Source of the DNA: Synechococcus sp. SynAce01
GTDB lineage: Bacteria > Cyanobacteriota > Cyanobacteriia > PCC-6307 > Cyanobiaceae
Length of the DNA stretch: 64,000 bases
Assembly: GCF_001885215.1 (NCBI RefSeq)
Contig: NZ_CP018091.1
Span: 682,001-746,000 of the forward strand
Reading direction: 5' to 3'
Shown: piece after piece, positions 2 to 54,027 of the stretch
How positions within the stretch are numbered: the stretch's first letter is position 1
How the letters are laid out: each line of letters begins with the position of its first letter
The notes under the pieces: generated by a model
The model's input: only the letters and a program-made list of their open reading frames with translations
Database searches by the model: none
Told to the model about the DNA's origin: nothing
Translations under genes and position numbers: made by a program

Positions 2-664
2 CTGCTGGCCTGGCAGCCGCTGCCGCCACTGCAGGCCAACTGGCCGGCGGTGCTGGCCCTGCCCTGGGCCGCCCTGGTGGCCACCACCCTGGGCCTGACG
101 CTGCTGGCCGCCTGCCTGGCGGTGGGCGTGGCCCCGCTGCTGTTGCTGCTGGTGGCACCCTGGCCCTGGGGTCGCCTGCTGTTGCGGGCCGTCTGGGCCA
201 TGGGCCGGCTGTGGCCGCCACCGCTCACCGCCCTGCTGCTGCTGTTCGTGCTCAAGCCCGGGGTCATCACCGCGGCGTTGGCCCTGGCTTTTCACAACCT
301 CGGGGTGCTGGGCCGGCTGCTGCTGGAGGCCTGCGAAGACACCGCTGATCAACCCGGATCGGGCGGAGCCGAAGTGGCCCTGAGCTGCTCGGGCTGTGGT
401 CCGCGGCTGGCCCTGCTCTACGGCCGCTTCAGTGGCCTGGCCCGCTCCTACCTGGCCTACGGCGCCTACCGGGCCGATGTGATCCTGCGGGAAACCGTGG
501 TGGTCGGGCTGGTGGGGGCCGCCGGGCTGGGCAGCCTGCTGCTGGAGGCCCTCAGTTCGTTTGCCGTCGATGAGCTGATTGCCCTGATCGCGGTGTATGC
601 CCTGCTGACCCTGCTGGGAGAAGATCTCAGCGACCGGGTCCGACAGCGACTGCTCTCGGGCTGA
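2..664 (+). CDS. PhnE-like ABC transporter permease, 5' end missing
   Basis: The reading frame is open from the first bases of the window, so the N-terminus lies outside. About 220 residues are visible. They form several hydrophobic leucine/alanine-rich segments and end in a typical permease loop: ILRETVVVGLVGAAGLGS resembles the EAA/coupling-helix region of phosphonate (PhnE) permeases, which reads RE..VVG.VGAGG.G. In that family the permease pairs with an ATPase (PhnC) and a binding protein (PhnD) in the inner membrane. None of these partners is visible downstream, so they may lie upstream. The substrate (phosphonate, phosphite or other) cannot be decided. Between the membrane segments lies a short loop carrying CSGCGPR, which I do not recognise as a motif. 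Confidence 0.75.
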   Translation: MLAWQPLPPLQANWPAVLALPWAALVATTLGLTLLAACLAVGVAPLLLLLVAPWPWGRLLLRAVWAMGRLWPPPLTALLLLFVLKPGVITAALALAFHNLGVLGRLLLEACEDTADQPGSGGAEVALSCSGCGPRLALLYGRFSGLARSYLAYGAYRADVILRETVVVGLVGAAGLGSLLLEALSSFAVDELIALIAVYALLTLLGEDLSDRVRQRLLSG

Positions 665-9357: not shown

Positions 9358-9501
9358 GGAGCCAGCCTGCCAGCAGGCTCACCCGGGCTTTCGCCGCTGC
9401 TGCCTCCACCGCCGCCTTCACCACTGTCTCTGGTGCTTTCGGAACCTTGCCGCCACCACAGGTGGCGTTTAAGCTGAGCCAACCAGACCAGCAGCGCTGC
9501 C

Positions 9502-11844
9502 GTGACCCTCACCCCCACCCGTCTCGACCTGGCTGATCCCAGCCGGCGCGGCACCAGCGAGCACCCCGATTTTCCGGCCACCGCTCCGGCGGCCAATCCG
9601 GTCTTTTACCGCACCTATTCCCGCCGCACCGAAGGCGGCCGCGAGAGCTGGCACCAGGTGTCGGAGCGCAACCTCGAGGGTCTGCGCCAGCTGGGCGACC
9701 TCAGCGCTGAGGAAGTGGCGCTGATCCGCCGCATGCAGACCTACCAGCAGGCCCTGCCCTCGGGGCGCTGGCTCTGGATCGGTGGCACGCCCTGGATTCA
9801 GCAGCGCCACAACTTCTCCGGCGCCTACAACTGCACCTCCACCAACCTGATCGACTGGGAAGCCTTCGGTCTGATGATGGACCTGGCGATGATGGGCTGC
9901 GGCACCGGCGCCATCATCGAACCGCGCTTAATTGAGCGGCTGCCGCTGCTGCGCAACCGGCTGGTGATCGAGAGCGTCAGCCCGATCGGTGTCACCCCCG
10001 CAGCCGAGCGCCAGGAGGCCACCCGCTCCAGCAGCGCGGGCAACCGGGTGACGATCAAGGTGGGGGACACCCGCCGCGGCTGGGTGGACAGCTACCAGCG
10101 TTTGCTGGAACTGAGCAGCGACACCAGCTTCAGCGCCGATGCTGCGATCACGGTGAACGTGGATCTCTCCGATGTGCGGCCAGTGGGCGAAACGCTCAAG
10201 GGCTTCGGCGGCATGGCCAACCCGGTGAAACTGGGCGATCTCTACGGCCGGGTGGCCCAGATCCTCAACAAGGCGAATGGCCGCCAGCTCACGTCGGTGG
10301 AGTGCTGCCTGCTGATCGATGAGGCCGCCGTCACGATCGTGGCGGGCAACATCCGCCGCAGCGCCGGCATGCGCCAGTTCGCCGCCGAGGATGGCTCCGC
10401 CGCTGGCGCCAAGGAAAACCTCTGGCAGCAAGACGCTGAAGGCAACTGGAGCATTGATCCCGACCGCGACGCGCTGCGGATGGCCAACCACACCCGGGTG
10501 TTCCACAACCGCCCCTCCAAAGAGGTGGTGCTCGAAGCGGTGGTCAAGCAGTTCCAGAGCGGCGAAGGCGCGATCCAGTTCGCCCCTGAGGCGATCGCCC
10601 GCTCCAATGCCGACCTGCTGCCCACCGCCGAGCTGCGCAGCGAGTTCATCGACATCTACGTCGACCAGGGCCGCGAGGAAGCCGGCCGCTGGCTCAACCT
10701 CCATCACCCCGAGATCAGCGCCGCCGAGCTGGAGCACCGGCTGGGACGTTATGGGCTCAATCCCTGCGGCGAAATCCTGGGAGCTGATTTCCACTGCAAC
10801 CTGGCCGAAATCCACCTCAACCGCATCGATCCAGCCGACCATCAGGCCCAGGCCGATGCCTTCAAGGCCGCTGGCCTGGCGGTGGCCTGCCTGCTCAACC
10901 ACGATTTCGAGGTGGAGCGTTACCGCCAGAGCCGCGCCTGGGATCCGATTGTGGGCGTGAGCTTCACCGGCCTGTTCGATTTCTTCGTGCATGCCTTCGG
11001 CACCCCCTGGCTGAACTGGTGGGAGGCGGGCCGCCCCGAAACAGAAGCCGGTCTGGCCTTCAAGGCGCAGGAAGCGGAGTATCTGAGCCGCTGGAAGCAG
11101 GTGGTGAACACGGCGGTGTGGGACTACTGCGATCGCCACGGCCTGCGTCGCCCCAATCGTTGCACCACCGTGCAACCGGCCGGCACCAAGAGCCTGCTCA
11201 CCGGCGCCAGCCCCGGCTGGCACCCTCCCAAGGCGCAGCGCTTCATCCGCCGCATCACCTTCCGCAAGAACGATCCGGTGGCCCTGGCCTGCCTCGACTA
11301 CGGCTACACGATCGTGCCAAGCCAATCGGACAAAGACGACAACGGTCGCCTGCTGGATAATCCCTTCGATCCACGCTGCACCGAATGGCTGGTGGAAATC
11401 CCCACCGAAGTGAGCTGGGCGAACATCCCTGGCGCCGATGCGGTGGAGATCAACAACTTCTCCGCCCTGGCCCAGTTCGACTTCTACATGCAAGTGCAGA
11501 CGCACTACACGGCCCACAACACCTCTGCCACCGTCGAGTTTCGCGAGAACGAAATCGAGCCGTTGGCCGAAGCGATCCATCAAGCGATCGATGGCGGCAA
11601 GGGCTATATCTCAGCAGCCCTGCTGGCCCGCTTCGATGCCAACGCCACCTTCCCGCGCCTGCCGTTTGAACCCATCGATCAGGCCACCTACAGCCGCCTG
11701 AGCGAAGAGGTGTTAAGCCGCCGCCGCACCGGTGATTTCTTCGAAGCCCTGCAGCGCTACGACCGCGGCGAACTGGTGGAAGCCGGTCCGGCTGGTTGTG
11801 ATTCCGACAAGTGTTTGCTGCCCCTGGCCAAGCCCACCCCATGA
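9502..11844 (+). CDS. nrdJ: Adenosylcobalamin-dependent (class II) ribonucleotide reductase
   Basis: This monomeric 780-residue enzyme is of the Lactobacillus leichmannii type. The expected cysteines are visible: Cys111 in YNCTSTN, Cys422 in NPCGEI, Cys432 in FHCNLAEIHL, and the C-terminal redox pair Cys766/Cys771 in GCDSDKCLLP. It reduces ribonucleoside triphosphates to deoxy forms using the B12 radical and needs no oxygen. Picocyanobacteria commonly rely on this class. The start is GTG 9502. I looked for a cobalamin riboswitch in the 144 nt upstream and saw none. The stop overlaps the next small gene (ATGA). Confidence 0.95.
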   Translation: MTLTPTRLDLADPSRRGTSEHPDFPATAPAANPVFYRTYSRRTEGGRESWHQVSERNLEGLRQLGDLSAEEVALIRRMQTYQQALPSGRWLWIGGTPWIQQRHNFSGAYNCTSTNLIDWEAFGLMMDLAMMGCGTGAIIEPRLIERLPLLRNRLVIESVSPIGVTPAAERQEATRSSSAGNRVTIKVGDTRRGWVDSYQRLLELSSDTSFSADAAITVNVDLSDVRPVGETLKGFGGMANPVKLGDLYGRVAQILNKANGRQLTSVECCLLIDEAAVTIVAGNIRRSAGMRQFAAEDGSAAGAKENLWQQDAEGNWSIDPDRDALRMANHTRVFHNRPSKEVVLEAVVKQFQSGEGAIQFAPEAIARSNADLLPTAELRSEFIDIYVDQGREEAGRWLNLHHPEISAAELEHRLGRYGLNPCGEILGADFHCNLAEIHLNRIDPADHQAQADAFKAAGLAVACLLNHDFEVERYRQSRAWDPIVGVSFTGLFDFFVHAFGTPWLNWWEAGRPETEAGLAFKAQEAEYLSRWKQVVNTAVWDYCDRHGLRRPNRCTTVQPAGTKSLLTGASPGWHPPKAQRFIRRITFRKNDPVALACLDYGYTIVPSQSDKDDNGRLLDNPFDPRCTEWLVEIPTEVSWANIPGADAVEINNFSALAQFDFYMQVQTHYTAHNTSATVEFRENEIEPLAEAIHQAIDGGKGYISAALLARFDANATFPRLPFEPIDQATYSRLSEEVLSRRRTGDFFEALQRYDRGELVEAGPAGCDSDKCLLPLAKPTP

Positions 11845-32496: not shown

Positions 32497-34614
32497 TCAG
32501 CCGGCGGGGCTATCGAGCGCTCCACTGCCACCACTGGCTTGCCAGCCACTGGGTGCATCGGGCCATTCCCCACTCACCCAGAGGCGCCGGGGCGCCGCCG
32601 CTGCCACGGCCTGCCGCTCAAGCGGCCAGGGCTGGAAACCCAGCCAGGTGCCGCTCCAGCCATCAGCGCGATCGGAGCCGGGACCGGCCTCCGGACCCAG
32701 CTGCTGTTGCCAGGCCAGCAAAGACTGGCGATCGGGCAGCAGCAGCCAGCGGTGGCTGCCCACCGTTAAAACGTGGGCGTGGCTGTCGGCGCTCAACGGC
32801 GTGAGCGCCAGGCCTGGGCTCTCCAACCGCTGACCCGGCAGCAGGGGCGCTCGGCCTTCGCTGGCGGCCAGCACCAGGGGGCTTTGTTGCTGCCAGCAGG
32901 CGTGCTCGTCGCTCGCCACTGGATCGAGCAGGGCAATCCAGTCGTAGCGGCTGAGGCCGAGGCCGGTGGCCAACCTGGCGGCGCTGGAGCAGCTGAGGCC
33001 ATCGGCGCGAAGGCTGATCAGGGCGCCGCGACCCCGGTGGCGGGCCAGCAGCAGATCGCCCCCCCATTGATGCACCAGTAGCAGCCGGTCGGCGCCCAGC
33101 AGCGAGAGGTGCAACGCCAGGGTGAGGCCCAGGCCAGCCAGCCCCAGCCGGCGCCAGCGCTGCCCCTGCAGCAACCAGGGCAGCAGCGACAGGAAGAGCA
33201 GCAGCACCAACCAGGGAATCGGCCGGCCCACCTGCCACTGGGCCATCGGCAGGGCCGCAAAGCCGCGCACCAGCAGCAGCAGCAGGCCGCACAGTGCCCC
33301 CAGCGGCCAGGCCAGCAGGGGCAGCAGCGCCGGCAGGGTCACGGCGCAGAGGGCCATCGCCATCGCCCCGAGCGTGAGCGGGGTCAGCAGCGGTGCCACC
33401 ACCAGGTTGGCGGGAACGGCATACAGCGGGACAACACCGAAGTGGAGCAGTTGCAGTGGCAAGGTCCAGAGCGAGGCCGCCACCGGCACCGCCAGGCCAG
33501 CACCAATCCAGCCAGACCCCTCCCCAGCCGGCAGCCAGCGCTGCAGGGCCTGCTCCAGGTCGGAGGCGGTGAGGATCAGGCCGGCCGTGGCGGCCACTGA
33601 GAGCTGGAAGCCCACATCCAGCAGCCAGTTCGGACGCACCAGCAGCATCACCAGCACGCTCAGCAGCAACACACCCAGGGGCCGGCTGCGGCCACCGCCT
33701 TCAAGCACCGCAAAGGCGACGCCCCCCATCAACACCGCCCGCACCACCGAGGGCTGGGGGCCGGCCAGCAGCAGGAACAGGAGCATGGCGCCGATCGCCA
33801 GCGCCGCCCGAGGTGGCCGCGGCAGCCTTCGCCCGAGGGCCATCACCGCACCGAGCAGCACGGTGAGGTGGAACCCCGAGGCCGCCAGGGCGTGGGAAAG
33901 CCCGGCGGCCCGGAAGGCTTCGCGCACCTCGGCGGGCAAGGGCACCACGGCACTCCCGAGCACCAGCGCAGCGAGTACCCCGCCGCGTTCCGGGCCGCCG
34001 GAGGCCAGCAGGGCCGCCGCCATCCGCCGCCGCACCTCCGCGATCGGCGGGGCGGGGCGCTCCAGCACCGTGGGGGGATCCTCCAGCCGCAGCTGGCTCC
34101 AGATCCCCTGGCGGGCCAGCCGCTCGGCCGGGCCACTCAACAACGGATGGGGACCGCTGGCCGGCCGGCGCAGCAGGCCATCCACCTCCAGCCGCCAACC
34201 CTGCTGAACGGCGGGGCACTGGCGCCAGAGCAGTTCCGTGCGGCCACCGGTCTGCTCAAGCACGGCGCTGCAGCCGCCCTGATCACCCCGCGGCCTGGGA
34301 TCGGCGACCAAGGTGCCCCGCAATCGCACTTGCTGAGGAACTGCAGACATGGGGGCGGCAGGCAGCAGCCGCACCGGATCGGCGGGGCCGGGCTGGGGCT
34401 GGCGCACCACCCCCCAAAGCAGCAGGGCCGGCACGAGCAGCAGCAGGGCCAGCCGCGCAGCCAGTCCAGCCCCAAGCTGCCCGGCCCGCCACCAGCTGAA
34501 CCCCAGCACCAGCAGGAGGCCAACAACACGCAGCCACTCCCCTGCTGCCCCCTCCAGAGGCAGCACACCCAGGGCCAGGCCGGCCAGCGCCAGCGACACC
34601 GTCAGCAGAGGCAT
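32497..34614 (-). CDS. comEC: ComEC/Rec2 family DNA-uptake channel protein
   Basis: The protein has 705 residues. Several N-terminal helices and a soluble OB-like domain (about residues 95-190) are followed by the competence core from about residue 220 (GLSHALAASGFHLTVLLGAV), GPQPSVVRAVLMGG near residue 285 and about eight further helices. ComEC forms the inner-membrane channel for single-stranded DNA in natural transformation. The C-terminal 180 residues should be a metallo-beta-lactamase-like nuclease. I see no HxHxDH or DVGQGD motif there, only LLARHRGRGALISLRADG and later divergent sequence. No other competence gene is adjacent. Confidence 0.85.
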   Translation of the reverse strand: MPLLTVSLALAGLALGVLPLEGAAGEWLRVVGLLLVLGFSWWRAGQLGAGLAARLALLLLVPALLLWGVVRQPQPGPADPVRLLPAAPMSAVPQQVRLRGTLVADPRPRGDQGGCSAVLEQTGGRTELLWRQCPAVQQGWRLEVDGLLRRPASGPHPLLSGPAERLARQGIWSQLRLEDPPTVLERPAPPIAEVRRRMAAALLASGGPERGGVLAALVLGSAVVPLPAEVREAFRAAGLSHALAASGFHLTVLLGAVMALGRRLPRPPRAALAIGAMLLFLLLAGPQPSVVRAVLMGGVAFAVLEGGGRSRPLGVLLLSVLVMLLVRPNWLLDVGFQLSVAATAGLILTASDLEQALQRWLPAGEGSGWIGAGLAVPVAASLWTLPLQLLHFGVVPLYAVPANLVVAPLLTPLTLGAMAMALCAVTLPALLPLLAWPLGALCGLLLLLVRGFAALPMAQWQVGRPIPWLVLLLFLSLLPWLLQGQRWRRLGLAGLGLTLALHLSLLGADRLLLVHQWGGDLLLARHRGRGALISLRADGLSCSSAARLATGLGLSRYDWIALLDPVASDEHACWQQQSPLVLAASEGRAPLLPGQRLESPGLALTPLSADSHAHVLTVGSHRWLLLPDRQSLLAWQQQLGPEAGPGSDRADGWSGTWLGFQPWPLERQAVAAAAPRRLWVSGEWPDAPSGWQASGGSGALDSPAG

Positions 34615-45146: not shown

Positions 45147-45611
45147 CTAGGTCAAAAGACATGTCGTAACTCCATCGGTATTGACATCGATTGTCAGTTC
45201 ATTCGTCGCTGCAATTGTTTCAACGGCCATGCATCGAATACCAGCAGGCCCAGGCTCAAGGGTGACAACAAAAGTACCGCCACCAACGCAGTTATCCACT
45301 GCGTTAACGGCAATAACATTTTGATCACTCGGTTCCGTCATACCAATAGCCAAATCAGAAGCAGCAGATGTTGCACATTCTTTGGCAAGGCCAAGCGCCT
45401 CTCCTATCAGCGCCCCATTGGCAGCCGCTCGGCGGGCTTGAAGATATTGCGGTAAAGCAACGGCAGCAAGCACACCAACGACCGCTACAACGATCATCAG
45501 CTCAACGAGCGTGAAAGCTCGATTCTTGCTGCGGCTTGCATGGATGCCGCGAAGCACACGGAGTTGAGCCTTGGGCAAGAGTTTCATCAGACCAGGAACA
45601 GTTTTGATCAT
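45147..45611 (-). CDS. Type IV pilin (PilA-like)
   Basis: This 154-residue prepilin has a long positively charged leader of about 32 residues, then the class III leader/processing site RA-FTLVELMIVVAVVGVLAAVALPQY. The residue before the cleavage site is Ala, not the usual Gly, and the Glu5 of the mature pilin is present (FTLVE). The globular part of about 120 residues has four cysteines (KECATS, NCVGG, IRCMA, TTCLL) that could pair as disulfides. A start at ATG 45587 would shorten the leader by eight residues. No pilus assembly gene is adjacent. Confidence 0.8.
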   Translation of the reverse strand: MIKTVPGLMKLLPKAQLRVLRGIHASRSKNRAFTLVELMIVVAVVGVLAAVALPQYLQARRAAANGALIGEALGLAKECATSAASDLAIGMTEPSDQNVIAVNAVDNCVGGGTFVVTLEPGPAGIRCMAVETIAATNELTIDVNTDGVTTCLLT

Positions 45612-46618: not shown

Positions 46619-46810
46619 GGCGGCAGCTTGAGCGGCGTGAGCGGGCCCAGTGTGGGACCCAAAGCGACCTTTGGGAGCGGTGGCCAGCCAAGAGGCCTAA
46701 CCAGACTTGAAGAAACCCGCATCAAAACCCGGCCTATTGCTACAACAAAGCCAACATGGATCCAGCAAAATCAATGCGCCGAAGCTGAATGTTTCCCAGC
46801 GGGGGAAGTC

Positions 46811-47548
46811 ATGCGCGATACAGTCATGCGCGATACAGAAAGCAGCCCACGCATTCTCATCGTCGATGACGATTTCGAATTGCGCCGTTTCCTCCAGGGG
46901 GAGTTTCTGGTGGAGGGTTTTGCAGTAGGCGAAGCCGATACGGGCCTGAGCGCCCTCACCCAGTTACGCGACAACCCCAACCCCTTCGATCTGGTGCTAC
47001 TCGATTGGACCCTGCCCGATTTCAGTGGTGTCGAGATCTGCCGCCGGCTTCGCTCCAGCGGCGTCACCGTGCCGGTGGTGATGCTCACGGCGCGAGACGA
47101 CATCCGCGACCGAGTTGAGGCGCTGGATTCCGGCGCCGACGACTTCATCAACAAACCATTCTCCATCGAGGAACTGCTAGCCCGCGTCCGCGCCCGCATG
47201 CGCCGCACCGGACTCAACTTGAACGGCAGCGTTGGCGAGCTACTCAGCTATCGCGGCCTGACCATGAACACCGGTAACCGGGAAGTTCGCCGCAATGGTG
47301 CCCCGATTCATCTCACCGTGCGCGAATACGACCTCCTCCAGACCCTGCTGCGCGAACCGAACCGGGTGCAGACGCGCAATCAGATCCTTGCCAGCGTCTG
47401 GGGCGCCAACCATTTCGGTGATGACAACCTGCTCGACGTCTACATCCGTTACCTGCGCAAGAAGGTCGAGCAATCCGGCTGCCCCAGCCTGATTCAGACC
47501 GTCCGTGGTGTCGGCTTCATGCTCAAGGAAGGGGATCCTTGGAACTGA
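46811..47548 (+). CDS. OmpR-family response regulator
   Basis: The protein has 245 residues. The receiver domain has acidic pocket LIVDDD and phosphoacceptor Asp65 in LLDWTLPD, and Lys in FINKPFSIEE. The C-terminal winged-helix domain contains LTVREYDLLQTLLREPNRVQ and VRGVGFMLKEG. ATG 46811 with ribosome site GGGGA follows. A 15-nt tandem repeat (46808-46837) duplicates the start codon, so ATG 46826 is a second possible start but without a Shine-Dalgarno site. It faces a sensor kinase gene that overlaps its 3' end by 26 nt. Confidence 0.9.
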   Translation: MRDTVMRDTESSPRILIVDDDFELRRFLQGEFLVEGFAVGEADTGLSALTQLRDNPNPFDLVLLDWTLPDFSGVEICRRLRSSGVTVPVVMLTARDDIRDRVEALDSGADDFINKPFSIEELLARVRARMRRTGLNLNGSVGELLSYRGLTMNTGNREVRRNGAPIHLTVREYDLLQTLLREPNRVQTRNQILASVWGANHFGDDNLLDVYIRYLRKKVEQSGCPSLIQTVRGVGFMLKEGDPWN

Positions 47549-48995
47549 ACCGGCGCAGCAGCAACTGAAAATCGGAACCGCCCCCTGGGCCGGGGGCATC
47601 CACCACCCGCGCCTCCCCTCCCATCCGCTCCATCAGCAACTTCACCACCGACAGACCAATGCCGCTGCCCCGACGCCTTGAAGAAGCGCTGCCCTGAACA
47701 AACCGCTCGAAGATCCGCTCTTTTTCGGCATCCGCCACCCCAGGCCCGCGGTCACGCACATGCACCACCACCACCTCCGCACTGCAGGCCAGGCTCTCCC
47801 CTGAGGCCTGGGGAGTGGTCTTGGGGGTGCACTGGGAGGTGGCAAACAACTCGATCGGACTGCCTGGATCGGCGTACTTCAGGGCGTTTTCCACCAGGTT
47901 GGTGAGGCACTGCTGCAATCGATCGGCATCACCGCAGGCCACCAGGACCTCAGCCTCGACGGGCGCCAACAGCCGCAGCCGCGAACCGGCATGGTCCACC
48001 AGCTGCTCATAAGTCGCCAGCAGCAGCAGCTCCACATCGATGACCTGGTGGCTCACCTCCAGGTGGCCGGCCTCATCGCGGGCGATGGCGAGCAAGTCGC
48101 TCACCAGCCGCCCCACCCGCTCTGCTTCGCCCTGGATCAACGCCAACGGCGCGATCATTTCCGCAGCAGCCCCATCGCTGTCCACGTCGCTGGCCGGATC
48201 GCGCTCACGGGTCGAGCTGGTTTGTTCTGCCTGGCGCTGCAACCGCTGGGCGTAGCCACTGATCAGCGTCATCGATGTACGCAGCTCATGGGAGACCCCA
48301 TCGACAAAATCCCGCTGGCGCTCGAAGGAGATAGCCAGGCGATCTAGCAAGTCGTCGAAGGCGAGGGCGATCGGTTGAAGCTCCTCGGGTTGGGGTTGCT
48401 CCTGCAACCGTTGGCGGCCGAGGCCATCGGCGCTGATCGCCGCCACGCTGTTGCCAAGCCGCTGCAGGGGCCGCAACCCCCCCTCCATCACCAGCCGCAG
48501 CAGGGCACTGGTCAGCAGGGCTGTCATCCCGGCCATGGCGATCAACAGCAACTGGGTGATCCGCTCCCGCCCAGCATCGGCGCTGAAATCCTCGAGGACA
48601 TGCAGGCGAGCCGGGCCGCTGCTCAGCAGCACCGGGTTGGCATAGGTCAGGAAGATGCCGCCACCCTCCCGGAAGGAGACCGGCCCATCGACTTGCCGGG
48701 CCAGGCGGCTGGCGGTGCTCTCCAAAGGACCGAGGGTCTCCGCCGCCCCTGGAGCACCTTCCAGCCACACCGTGACGCCGGGGAGGAGCATCGAGCTGAT
48801 CCGCCGTTGCATTTCCGTCGAATCGGGAATCTCAGCGGATTCAGTGAGCTTCTTCTGAAGCGCATACACCCCGTCGCTGTGGGCGTCGTAGCGGCTCAGA
48901 GCGGCGAGCTGCCTGTTGGCAAGAAGAAGCACGCCGTAGCCAACAAGCACGGCCAACAGACTGGTGGCTTGAAGTCGACGACGAATCGAACTCAA
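47523..48995 (-). CDS. Two-component sensor histidine kinase
   Basis: The kinase has 490 residues. Two membrane helices (residues 11-27 and 147-169) flank a periplasmic sensor of about 115 residues with no recognised fold. A HAMP-like segment follows, then the H-box FVDGVSHELRTSM (His236), N-box LTNLVENALKYADP, G1 VRDRGPGVADAEKERIFERF and G2 GSGIGLSVVKLL. The phosphotransfer partner is most likely the convergent OmpR-type regulator, whose gene overlaps its 3' end by 26 nt. The signal sensed is unknown. Confidence 0.92.
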   Translation of the reverse strand: MSSIRRRLQATSLLAVLVGYGVLLLANRQLAALSRYDAHSDGVYALQKKLTESAEIPDSTEMQRRISSMLLPGVTVWLEGAPGAAETLGPLESTASRLARQVDGPVSFREGGGIFLTYANPVLLSSGPARLHVLEDFSADAGRERITQLLLIAMAGMTALLTSALLRLVMEGGLRPLQRLGNSVAAISADGLGRQRLQEQPQPEELQPIALAFDDLLDRLAISFERQRDFVDGVSHELRTSMTLISGYAQRLQRQAEQTSSTRERDPASDVDSDGAAAEMIAPLALIQGEAERVGRLVSDLLAIARDEAGHLEVSHQVIDVELLLLATYEQLVDHAGSRLRLLAPVEAEVLVACGDADRLQQCLTNLVENALKYADPGSPIELFATSQCTPKTTPQASGESLACSAEVVVVHVRDRGPGVADAEKERIFERFVQGSASSRRRGSGIGLSVVKLLMERMGGEARVVDAPGPGGGSDFQLLLRRFSSKDPLP

Positions 48996-49118: not shown

Positions 49119-49814
49119 CTAACCGGCACCCGCCAACACTTCGCTGACGATCGTTTGCGCTCTTCCGCCAGCCTCGCTGAAGCTCTGCTCCAGCCGCAGC
49201 GCCACCAGCTGGGTCTCGGGATCGAGGCAAGCCGAGAATGGCAGCCGTGACGAACCATTCAGTTCCACCCCAGCCGCTACCGCGGCTTCGCCGCCGTTGA
49301 GCAACAGGCTGCAGCCCTGCCAGGGCGTGGCCTGGGCAGCCAGCCCGTCCAGCACGACCCGGCTCTGGAACGTCGTGCCGGCGGACACTTGGCCGTCAAG
49401 CCCGAAGGCAGGCCCACAGCGGACCAGCACCCTGCCCTGCCAGAGGCCACTGGGCGCTGCTCCAACCGAATAGGTGATCGTTCCCTCCGGCGTCCTGAGC
49501 TGCAGCACGGCCGGCCGCCCCGCCAGGCCGCAGGCTGAGCCGTAGCGCTCTGGGTCGGGCGCCACCGCCGTGGCCCGCTGCAGATCGGCCTGGATCAGGT
49601 CCAGGGCTCGGCCCTGGTTCGCCCGCTCCCGCAGCAGGCGGCTGAACCGTCCGGCGTTCAGCCCTTCCCCCAACAGCGCCTGGACCACCACCCCGCAGAA
49701 CAGCAGCCCCAGCCCCATCGCCAGCAGCAGCTCCACCAAAGAGAAGCCGCCCCCCTGACGGCGCAAACCCTGCTGTTGGTGTTGAAACGGAATGGACGAC
49801 CCGGCGGTACGCAT
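49119..49814 (-). CDS. Prepilin-like protein (PilW-type), 3' gene of a minor-pilin operon
   Basis: This 231-residue protein has the prepilin processing motif GGGFSLVELLLAMGLGLLFCGVVVQ near residue 22 and a Glu at mature position 5. The soluble domain of about 190 residues carries six cysteines (CGLAG, RCGPA, GCSLL, ACLDP among them), consistent with disulfides. ATG 49814 was preferred to TTG 49829 because the latter gives an atypically longer leader. It is the last of four same-strand pilin-like genes and is separated by 18 nt from the preceding one. Confidence 0.75.
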   Translation of the reverse strand: MRTAGSSIPFQHQQQGLRRQGGGFSLVELLLAMGLGLLFCGVVVQALLGEGLNAGRFSRLLRERANQGRALDLIQADLQRATAVAPDPERYGSACGLAGRPAVLQLRTPEGTITYSVGAAPSGLWQGRVLVRCGPAFGLDGQVSAGTTFQSRVVLDGLAAQATPWQGCSLLLNGGEAAVAAGVELNGSSRLPFSACLDPETQLVALRLEQSFSEAGGRAQTIVSEVLAGAG

Positions 49815-49832
49815 GGTGATGAACAACAACGA

Positions 49833-50378
49833 TCAGAGCGTGGGATCGGGTTGGCAGAGGCTGCTGTCGGGCCTGCTGCCGCTGGCCCCGCCATAGCGGC
49901 CCAGCCGCACGATTCCCAGCGGCAGCGCCATCACCAGACAGCGGCGCAGGGGAGTGCCGCTGCTGGCCAGCACCACCGTGCCGCCATCAAGCACCAGGCC
50001 ATTGCTGCTGAAGCGCAACACCTCTGGCAGGTTGTGGAGCACGTCCACCGCGGTGCTCTCCACCCCCTCACCCAGTTCCATCAGCGTGTCGCGACAGGGC
50101 CTCAAAGCTCCGCCCTGCGGCGGCTGCCAGCCCTGCTCCGAGAGGGTGAGTCCACAGGCTTCCCCCTGCTGTTCGGCCTCACTGCGGCCACGCTCGATGC
50201 CCTGAGCCAAGCGCCGACTCGCCACCTCCAGGCGTTGCCTGGCCAGGCTTTCACCCCCCGACCGCAGGCCCAGGCCAGCCAGCAGGCCGATCACCGCCAG
50301 GGTCACCAGCAGCTCCACCAGGCTGAAGCCAGCCTGGTGGCTGAAGCGGCTCGGCCTGGCCTGCAGACGCTGTCTCAC
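49833..50378 (-). CDS. GspH/FimT-type pseudopilin
   Basis: This 181-residue prepilin-like protein has QAGFSLVELLVTLAVIGLLAGLGL near residue 15, with Gly before the Phe and Glu5. ASRRLAQGIERGRSEAEQQG follows, typical of the FimT/GspH family, which initiates or controls pilus assembly. GTG 50378 starts within the upstream gene's stop (4-nt overlap). It has conserved-type cysteines (GEACGL, LRPCRD, RRCLVM). Confidence 0.75.
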   Translation of the reverse strand: MRQRLQARPSRFSHQAGFSLVELLVTLAVIGLLAGLGLRSGGESLARQRLEVASRRLAQGIERGRSEAEQQGEACGLTLSEQGWQPPQGGALRPCRDTLMELGEGVESTAVDVLHNLPEVLRFSSNGLVLDGGTVVLASSGTPLRRCLVMALPLGIVRLGRYGGASGSRPDSSLCQPDPTL

Positions 50379-50833
50379 GTGCCCTCCTCCAGATCGGAAG
50401 TGGCAGCCGCTGACGGACAGAGGCCATGGGCGGCAGCGGTGAACAGCCGGCGACGCTCCAGGCCCATGGGCTCGATGCGGTAGACGAGCCAGAGCCCATC
50501 CACTCCCGACGACGTCGCGCTCACCTGGCGCTGCACTCCCACCGGCAGAGCTCCAGCCCCGCTCTGGAGCTGCTCCGCCATCCACTGGCCTGCCGCCGCA
50601 CAACCGGCTGCCGGCTGTTCAGGGCCTTCAGCTTCCACTCCAGCCACCACAGCGAGCGCCGCCTGGCGCAGGCCGTGCTCGCGGCGCAGCAAGTCGGCAT
50701 CGACACGGCGCAACATTTCCTGCTGTTCAGCGTTGGCCTGGCTCCAGCGGGCGCTGGAGCTCCACAGTTGCAACGAGGTGTTGGCCGCCAGGGAGAACAC
50801 CAGCATCGCCATCGTGATCTCGATCAGGTTCAT
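50375..50833 (-). CDS. PilV-like pseudopilin without an obvious leader
   Basis: This 152-residue protein begins MNLIEITMAMLVFSLAANTSL, a prepilin-type helix with IEI in place of the usual FTLIE, so the leader is very short. The rest is a soluble region with many Arg/Ala/Gln residues and about two cysteines (GCAAA, LCPSA). It overlaps both neighbours by 4 nt. It is a minor pilin from operon position and helix, since the sequence alone is not diagnostic. Confidence 0.6.
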   Translation of the reverse strand: MNLIEITMAMLVFSLAANTSLQLWSSSARWSQANAEQQEMLRRVDADLLRREHGLRQAALAVVAGVEAEGPEQPAAGCAAAGQWMAEQLQSGAGALPVGVQRQVSATSSGVDGLWLVYRIEPMGLERRRLFTAAAHGLCPSAAATSDLEEGT

Positions 50834-51351
50834 CGCCCCATCCGCCGCACCGTCAGCAGCCGCTCCGGCCGGTCGGGATCAAGCCGCAATCCGAACAGGG
50901 CCTGGGCCCGACTGCCCGTCTCCTCTCCCCCTAACTCCAGCCGCAGCCGAGCCTCCAGTGCCGTCACCGGTTCAGCAGCAGGCCCAGGAGCAGGCCACCA
51001 CTCCACCAGCCTGTAGCGGGAGCTGCCCACCTCCCCTTCACGGAGCCCGGCGAGGCTGGCGCCCGCTCCGCAACCCGCCGGTGGCCACTGCGACGACGGG
51101 ACTTGCAGCAGGCAGCGGTAGGGGCCATGGAGCTGGGCCGCCACCTGCTGGGCGGCCGAAGCCAGGGCGTCGCTGGCCTGGCGTTGCCGCCATTGCCCTG
51201 CCATCTGTCGATGGCCATGCAGGGCAGCGGTTTGCAGCGAGAGGCTGCTGAGCAGCAACACCAGCCCCACGCCGAAGGAGAGGGGCAGAAAGAAGCCCGA
51301 CTGGCCAGCATGCTGGGCGGCCATGGACTTGCTTCGAAGCTGAGAAGGCAT
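50830..51351 (-). CDS. PilX-like minor pilin or membrane-anchored pilus protein
   Basis: This 173-residue protein has a basic N-terminus, then GQSGFFLPLSFGVGLVLLLSSLSL (a prepilin-like helix without Glu5) near residue 17 and a soluble part rich in Gln/Arg with two to three cysteines (YRCLL, AGCGAG). It starts the four-gene run of minor-pilin-like genes, 73 nt after the lepA stop. It is a candidate PilX-type protein by position; the lack of Glu5 is as in some PilX members. Confidence 0.55.
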   Translation of the reverse strand: MPSQLRSKSMAAQHAGQSGFFLPLSFGVGLVLLLSSLSLQTAALHGHRQMAGQWRQRQASDALASAAQQVAAQLHGPYRCLLQVPSSQWPPAGCGAGASLAGLREGEVGSSRYRLVEWWPAPGPAAEPVTALEARLRLELGGEETGSRAQALFGLRLDPDRPERLLTVRRMGR

Positions 51352-51424: not shown

Positions 51425-53233
<1,809 letters not shown>

Positions 53234-53349: not shown

Positions 53350-53634
53350 ATGGCGCTTTCAGCCACGCCCAAAACCACGCAGGCAAGCCTCCGCCAGGTG
53401 AACGTGCACGAAGCCAAGACCCAGCTCTCCCGCCTGCTTCAGGAGGTGGAGGCCGGTCAGGCGGTGGTGATCGCCAGGGCTGGTGTCCCCATCGCCCAAC
53501 TGGTCCCCATTCAGGCCCAAGCCTCCGGCGTCGCGCCTCCAGGGGCGATGCGCGGTGAGATCACCATGGCGGACGACTTCGATCGCACCCTGGACGACCT
53601 GTTCACCGTTCTGCAGCTGCCGATCGCCCCTTGA
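53350..53634 (+). CDS. Phd/YefM-type antitoxin
   Basis: This 94-residue protein has the Phd/YefM pattern VNVHEAKTQLSRLLQEVEAGQAVVIARAGVPIAQLVP over residues 17-55. An acidic, helical C-terminal part (TMADDFDRTLDDLFTVLQ) probably binds the toxin. It is followed after 3 nt by a PIN-domain gene, the classic order. It likely represses its own promoter through the upstream palindrome. Confidence 0.85.
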   Translation: MALSATPKTTQASLRQVNVHEAKTQLSRLLQEVEAGQAVVIARAGVPIAQLVPIQAQASGVAPPGAMRGEITMADDFDRTLDDLFTVLQLPIAP

Positions 53635-53637
53635 TCC

Positions 53638-54027
53638 ATGGCCCGGTTGCTCCTCGACACGCACCTGGTGCTCTGGTGGATCGCAGACCACCCACAGTTG
53701 CCCAAGGCTGCGGTCGGCCTGATCCGCGACCCTGAGAACGAGGTTCATGTCAGCCAGGTTTCCCTCTGGGAACTGGCGATCAAAGCCTCCGTGGGGCGGC
53801 TGGATGTGGACCTGGCCAAGCTTGAACGCACCATTCCCGCCCAGGGCTTCCGCTGGCTGGCAATCCGCAACCAGCACCTGCTGGCTGTGGCCGAACTGGG
53901 AACCAGCCCCGTGCATCGCGATCCCTTTGATCGCTTGCTGGTGGCCCAGAGCCGCAGCGAACCGCTGAGGCTGCTCACGGCCGATCGCCAGCTCGCGGCC
54001 TACGGACCGACGGTGACGGTTTTTTGA
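53638..54027 (+). CDS. PIN-domain ribonuclease toxin (VapC type)
   Basis: This 129-residue PIN domain has Asp7 in LLLDTHLV, Glu45 in SLWELAIK, and Asp95/Asp98 in HRDPFDRLLVAQ, the conserved metal-binding acids. LLTADRQLAAYG precedes the end. The variant LDTHLVLWW with a closing tryptophan pair resembles the PIN_Sll0205 group common in cyanobacteria. The toxin would cleave RNA unless bound by the antitoxin encoded 3 nt upstream. All acids are intact, so it is probably active. Confidence 0.88.
   Translation: MARLLLDTHLVLWWIADHPQLPKAAVGLIRDPENEVHVSQVSLWELAIKASVGRLDVDLAKLERTIPAQGFRWLAIRNQHLLAVAELGTSPVHRDPFDRLLVAQSRSEPLRLLTADRQLAAYGPTVTVF

Follow-up and report, generated by a model that had tools for sequence, protein, structure and literature searches.

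Can a core minor pilin be made without the leader that defines a prepilin? The question is raised by four consecutive minus-strand open reading frames at 49119-51351 of the window, a term used here for the whole 64,000-nucleotide stretch of DNA that was analysed. Gene X (50830..51351) encodes a putative PilX/GspK-like minor pilin of 173 amino acids with a 19-residue leader whose last residue is glycine; its mature sequence begins with phenylalanine at +1 (FFLPL) and, on inspection, lacks the glutamate at position 5 (Glu5) that is present in the other three. Gene I (50375..50833), a candidate PilV/GspI-like minor pilin of 152 amino acids, carries glutamate at +5 and is leaderless. Gene H (49833..50378; 181 amino acids, GTG start), a GspH/FimT-type minor pilin, and gene W (49119..49814; ATG start, with an alternative TTG start possible at 49829), a candidate PilW/GspJ-like minor pilin, both have leaders ending in glycine, that of H being 17 residues long, and both mature sequences begin FSLVE. 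X and I share four nucleotides (50830..50833, minus strand), an ATGA formed by the stop codon of the one and the start codon of the other; a second 4-nt overlap joins I to H, and 18 nt separate H from the ATG start of W. The initial annotation of this DNA, which had reported four consecutive genes behind lepA with these overlaps and this gap, one PilX-like member without Glu5 and one with IEI at the start of its helix (gene I begins MNLIEI), was borne out in each of these respects. It had also given prepilin-like starts to all four; X, H and W are prepilins, whereas I, despite its pilin helix, lacks a prepilin leader.

The host's family was surveyed with a profile of H, which found the gene in 173 of 400 family genomes at E <= 1e-12, the host's own included; by its named matches, the host groups with Cyanobium, Synechococcus, Vulcanococcus and Prochlorococcus. 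The 175 loci read collapsed to 133 distinct loci by H sequence, and because the order X-I-H-W was kept in 123/123 distinct loci holding all four genes, the block is beyond chance. Directly upstream, lepA (51425..53233, minus strand) is a neighbour outside the pilin system: of the 131 loci tested, 61 have it upstream in the same orientation, at most 400 nt from the mature start of X in 23 of those 61, and it is therefore a frequent, not a constant, close neighbour of the block (it was absent from 59 loci with less than 2.5 kb of upstream sequence and from 10 with more, and lay elsewhere in one). Beyond lepA the window holds a VapB/VapC-like pair, named by resemblance (53350-54027), which is also present in some relatives. 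Extra prepilin-like genes were seen near the X-I-H-W block in three other loci (L043, 14909-16050; L044, 10505-11633; L039, 6236-7980).

Within the block only H passed curated cut-offs, matching the GspH model (PF12019, E = 2.4e-7), in keeping with the single GspH/FimT-type gene of the initial annotation, and the N-methylation model (N_methyl, PF07963, E = 7.2e-7). W scored 17.8 bits against N_methyl (E = 0.0024; cut-off 21.2) and 21.5 bits in the genome search, in which its neighbours in the frame were included. X and I had no Pfam match and no curated family match above cut-off; 50 members of I yielded weak matches only (gspJ 9, ComGE 5, gspI 3, PilV 2), and members of X and W gave no PilX or PilW match in Pfam. 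Neither family profiles for X, I and W nor profile-based screening of PDB sequences returned a usable identity. The searches with PilV, PilW, PilX and GspH models proposed by the initial annotation thus succeeded for GspH in H, but PilV, PilW and PilX gave nothing above cut-off, in line with the strong divergence and partial family matching that it had described. The PilW type that it had named retains the support of the position, size and Glu5 of W, features by which we tentatively assign W as PilW/GspJ-like, but not that of a Pfam match; the W profile itself matched in 128 of 133 distinct loci, leaving five without a match. By elimination and size, gene I is placed in the PilV/GspI position. 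Mean column identity over 50 members was 31% for I, 40% for X and 46% for W, and two cysteines of I were invariant across the 50 aligned members.

Predicted structures of the two most elusive members are consistent with pilins. The AlphaFold2 model of I (mean pLDDT 89) comprises a helix at residues 3-66, a second at 76-91 and three strands, and that of X (mean pLDDT 87) a helix at 3-56 plus strands; both predicted folds follow the pilin plan of a long N-terminal helix and a globular beta head. Foldseek comparison of the two models with the PDB gave no match at E <= 0.001. In a second structural comparison, X aligned with a chain of the XcpGHIJK pseudopilus (Z 6.9, 134 residues aligned, rmsd 4.5), with FimA (Z 6.4, 118 residues, rmsd 4.2) and with a Thermus competence pilin (Z 5.2, 108 residues, rmsd 3.9); the next, unrelated entries stood at Z 3.6, and values of Z below 8 can reflect a common arrangement. 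For I, Thermus PilA4 (6xxd; Z 4.9, 99 residues, rmsd 4.2) came up mixed in with unrelated entries and was outscored by some of them (up to Z 6.2).

Within the window, the class III leader test found a glycine-ending leader in X, H and W and none in I, and a prepilin test of I likewise detected no cleavable leader with glycine or alanine at -1. The start codon of gene I, the ATG at 50833-50831, is itself mature residue +1, four codons ahead of Glu5; the nearest upstream in-frame stop lies 16 codons away, and no start-like codon (ATG, GTG, TTG, CTG, ATT, ATC or ATA) falls in between. This arrangement recurs in the family. The N-terminus of I could be read in 129 of the 133 distinct loci (I had no match in two, and its N-terminus was uncovered in two), and in 116 of these the start codon stood at +1 (ATG in 108, GTG in seven, TTG in one). 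At +5 the 116 leaderless genes carry glutamate (113) or aspartate (3), and because this residue anchors the alignment the +1 position of I is fixed. A start at +1 was seen in 17/132 H genes, 0/127 W genes and 1/125 X genes; since the other three genes are thus rarely or never leaderless, the missing leader is a property of I and not of annotation or base composition. Genes were counted as leader-bearing when they had glycine at -1 together with an ATG, GTG or TTG 4-35 codons upstream; without this rule leaderless H rises from 17 to 22 of 132, and its changes on trees of 124 loci from four to seven, while I is unchanged at 116/129.

Since the I profile was seeded with sequences beginning at Met+1, the +1 assignment rests on Glu5, upstream stops, gene overlaps and Shine-Dalgarno sites. 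A stop occurs within 35 codons upstream of +1 in 53 of the 116 leaderless genes, and in 34 of these 53, the window included, none of the seven start-like codons lies between stop and +1; in L039 the stop codon immediately precedes the ATG. No other ATG, GTG or TTG is found 4-35 codons upstream in 102 of the 116. Among 101 strict leaderless loci with X, the start of I and the stop of X share 4 nt in 87 cases and a single nucleotide in 12. Shine-Dalgarno-like 4-mers precede the +1 start in 55/116 cases, compared with 157/1127 internal ATGs of the same four genes (p = 8e-16, a value that is too small because the loci are related). On this sequence evidence, translation of gene I appears to yield a protein with no leader, leaving three of the four genes as prepilins.

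The history of this trait was traced on a FastTree tree of H and W, built from the 124 loci at which I, H and W were all readable and rooted with eight of ten loci from other cyanobacterial families. At all ten, every profile match to H, I or W (E < 1e-3) has glycine at -1 and an ATG, GTG or TTG no more than 45 codons upstream; three of the ten (L227, L232 and L234) include genes for which the I profile is the best match. The split between ingroup and outgroup was supported at 0.999. Five loci in which I and H both carry leaders (L046, L127-L130) diverge first, and the remaining 119 group together with support of 0.94. The minimum number of changes was three for I (a single loss, a return and a broken gene) and four for H, suggesting a single loss of the I leader, later than the first split among carriers in the family. 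For H, leader loss is seen in four separate groups on the tree (13 loci), the start again falling at +1. The return of a leader to I is placed at four loci on the tree (L041, L133, L193 and L199; support 1.0) and three off it (L044, L132 and L214); in these seven, I has glycine at -1 and phenylalanine at +1, six have no ATG, GTG or TTG 4-35 codons upstream, and it is H that lacks the leader. In 123 of 129 loci one or both of I and H are leaderless, the exceptions being the five early-branching loci and L035. At L035, from a same-genus relative (9480-9760 of that locus), part of the block has been lost next to the remaining H and W: X is gone, and with the opening codons of I replaced, its translation would begin at +8.

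Two explanations would deprive the missing leader of its meaning. Gene I might be an ordinary prepilin whose leader is supplied from a start inside X or by ribosomal frameshifting out of X. Room for this exists, because the reading frame of I stays open beyond 35 codons upstream of +1 in 63 of the 116 loci, and an ATG, GTG or TTG lies 4-35 codons upstream in 14, so that sequence inspection by itself does not exclude another start there; in the seven loci where I keeps glycine at -1 and phenylalanine at +1, six of them without an upstream ATG, GTG or TTG, a leader from an unclear start is indeed likely. For the leaderless genes at large we consider this improbable: the window and 33 other loci have no start-like codon between stop and +1, the stop at L039 directly precedes the ATG, only four of 83 genes with a start at +1 have glycine at -1 (in a first set of 95 loci), and initiation at +1 agrees with both the ATGA overlap and the enrichment of Shine-Dalgarno sites. 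Alternatively, leader loss could be a step in the decay of a degenerating, non-functional I, as might be suggested by the relative in which X and the 5' end of I have been lost, along with the lower identity of I than of X or W. We regard this as highly improbable: 116 loci have preserved the open reading frame, the position of the start and Glu5 or Asp5 since what the tree makes a single old loss, two cysteines never vary in the alignment, and the leader of H was lost in four groups with the start once more at +1.

Residues around the start offer suggestive hints only. At +2, leaderless I has N, Q or H in 50 of 116 genes and T, S or P in the other 66, whereas N, Q or H is found at this position in 0/246 leader-bearing H, W and I genes. 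Methionine aminopeptidase would be expected to remove Met+1 before T, S or P, and N, Q or H at +2 should keep it; the 50 genes may retain their methionine, and in the 66 its removal would make the glutamate position 4. Mean lysine plus arginine content at positions 21-38, compared with kinship ignored, is 1.43 in leaderless I, 2.42 in leader-bearing I (12 genes), 2.21 in W, 2.97 in X, 3.05 in H and 3.14 in leaderless H. The low charge behind the helix could fit an easier orientation of leaderless I, although leaderless H shows no such drop.

Pilus motor genes, on whose presence elsewhere in the genome the initial annotation had made its reading depend, were found: the 2.75-Mb, single-contig genome has pilB, pilT and pilC side by side, a PilD N-terminal domain and a secretin. 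As had been annotated, the window also contains comEC (32497..34614, minus strand; PF03772, E = 2.2e-54) and a lone PilA-like candidate for the major pilin, AFTLVELMIVVAVVGVLAAVALPQYLQ (45147..45611, minus strand; N_methyl, E = 1.4e-8). A search of the whole genome for the N_methyl motif gave three matches, all of them inside the window: H, W and the lone PilA-like pilin. X and I are missed by this model, which could overlook further divergent pilins as well. Between the lone pilin and the operon lie convergent genes with overlapping 3' ends (46628-48995) that resemble, and are named after, a response regulator and a histidine kinase; homologues are found near pilin genes in several relatives.

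Across 399 other family genomes, searched with cut-offs of 1e-12 for H, 1e-80 for pilB and 1e-8 for comEC, H was present in 172: 164 had H and pilB, eight had H only and 80 pilB only, and the eight genomes with H but no pilB are all 58-85% complete. The operon thus tracks pilB. The 244 pilB carriers divide into 152 with H and comEC, 12 with H alone, 20 with comEC alone and 60 with neither, an odds ratio of 38 with kinship ignored. The link is strong and not strict: 14 of the 172 carriers have the operon but no comEC, six of these 14 being at least 90% complete, and one genome of the same genus (G003) has pilB, the PilD domain and comEC but no H match.

From this co-occurrence, it is quite likely that the tip complex serves DNA uptake. 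Marine Synechococcus strains with PilA3 also encode ComEA and ComEC (PMC7994388), and in Synechococcus elongatus PCC 7942 pilA3 and pilW are needed for transformation, strains missing both being non-transformable yet still piliated (PMC7125226). The operon might instead serve a general or flotation pilus, with comEC co-occurring since small genomes lose both; PilA1 pili of Synechococcus WH7803 have been tied to avoiding sinking (Aguilo-Ferretjans et al. 2021, PMC7994388), 12 pilB-positive carriers lack comEC, the operon is missing from 20 genomes that have comEC and pilB, and an association in which kinship is ignored could owe much to a few streamlined lineages that lost both. The 60 pilB-positive genomes with neither, the strength of the association among pilB carriers and the S. 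elongatus phenotype speak against such a pilus, which we consider possible but rather unlikely; a role in DNA uptake remains our preferred reading.

The block invites comparison with PilHIJK, FimU-PilV-PilW-PilX and GspHIJK, which are likewise four adjacent genes, three with Glu5 and one, the cap, without. Like these HIJK-type sets it has a GspH domain in one member and pilin-like predicted folds of I and X, and the host genome has PilB, PilC and a PilD domain. Unlike them, its gene I has no class III leader, its I, X and W are too divergent to match PilV, PilW and PilX models, and its gene order differs from those of other HIJK-type sets. Gene X has a proline near the start of its helix, as does ComGG; gene I matched ComGE weakly (E = 0.086, far below cut-off), and the ComGE and ComGG proteins of Gram-positive competence pili have leaders, unlike gene I. 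By description, the PilA3-PilW pair of S. elongatus PCC 7942 and WH7803, a pilin beside a PilW-like pilin, resembles H-W; the passages of those accounts drawn on here describe neither X and I partners nor a leaderless pilin (PMC7125226, PMC7994388). Among the papers listed by searches of open-access literature, no title or abstract opening describes a leaderless type IV pilin. The new element would be a conserved leaderless core minor pilin.

The minor-pilin priming complex put forward in the initial annotation accords with the gene order, the Glu5 pattern, the predicted folds of X and I, and the co-occurrence with pilB and comEC. Together, sequence facts, conservation, start-codon evidence, phylogeny, co-occurrence and the two predicted folds form the basis on which we propose that the block probably encodes the H-I-J-K core minor pilins that seed the pilus, with I made mature and independent of the peptidase. 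Prepilins are defined by a class III signal whose leader ends in glycine or alanine; pilin orientation obeys the positive-inside rule, with the leader cytoplasmic; Glu5 pairs with the N-terminal amine of a neighbour; and pilus assembly begins from minor pilins, with a cap subunit lacking Glu5 (all PMC10191384). Gene I would be translated, probably by coupling at the stop codon of X, from the start codon that is residue +1, and its helix would enter the inner membrane via SRP/Sec with no cationic leader, in an orientation presumed to be that of a pilin. The amine of its methionine, or of the next residue after methionine removal, would replace the N-terminus normally made by PilD; synthesised mature, I would therefore need no PilD cleavage before joining X and W. 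X would cap the pilus tip, I (whose incorporation is presumed), W and H would join it there, and PilB would then add PilA from below.

On balance we favour the view that a core minor pilin, I in most carriers and H in four groups of relatives, is made directly mature, and that tip seeding can be uncoupled from PilD maturation of the other pilins. If so, PilD would be dispensable for a subunit that starts the filament, and membrane orientation would be reached without a cationic leader. Programs that search for prepilins look for the class III signal (PMC10191384) and would miss real pilins like I. The family would also provide a natural test system for the parts played by leader, cleavage and N-methylation in the insertion and orientation of pilins and in filament seeding.
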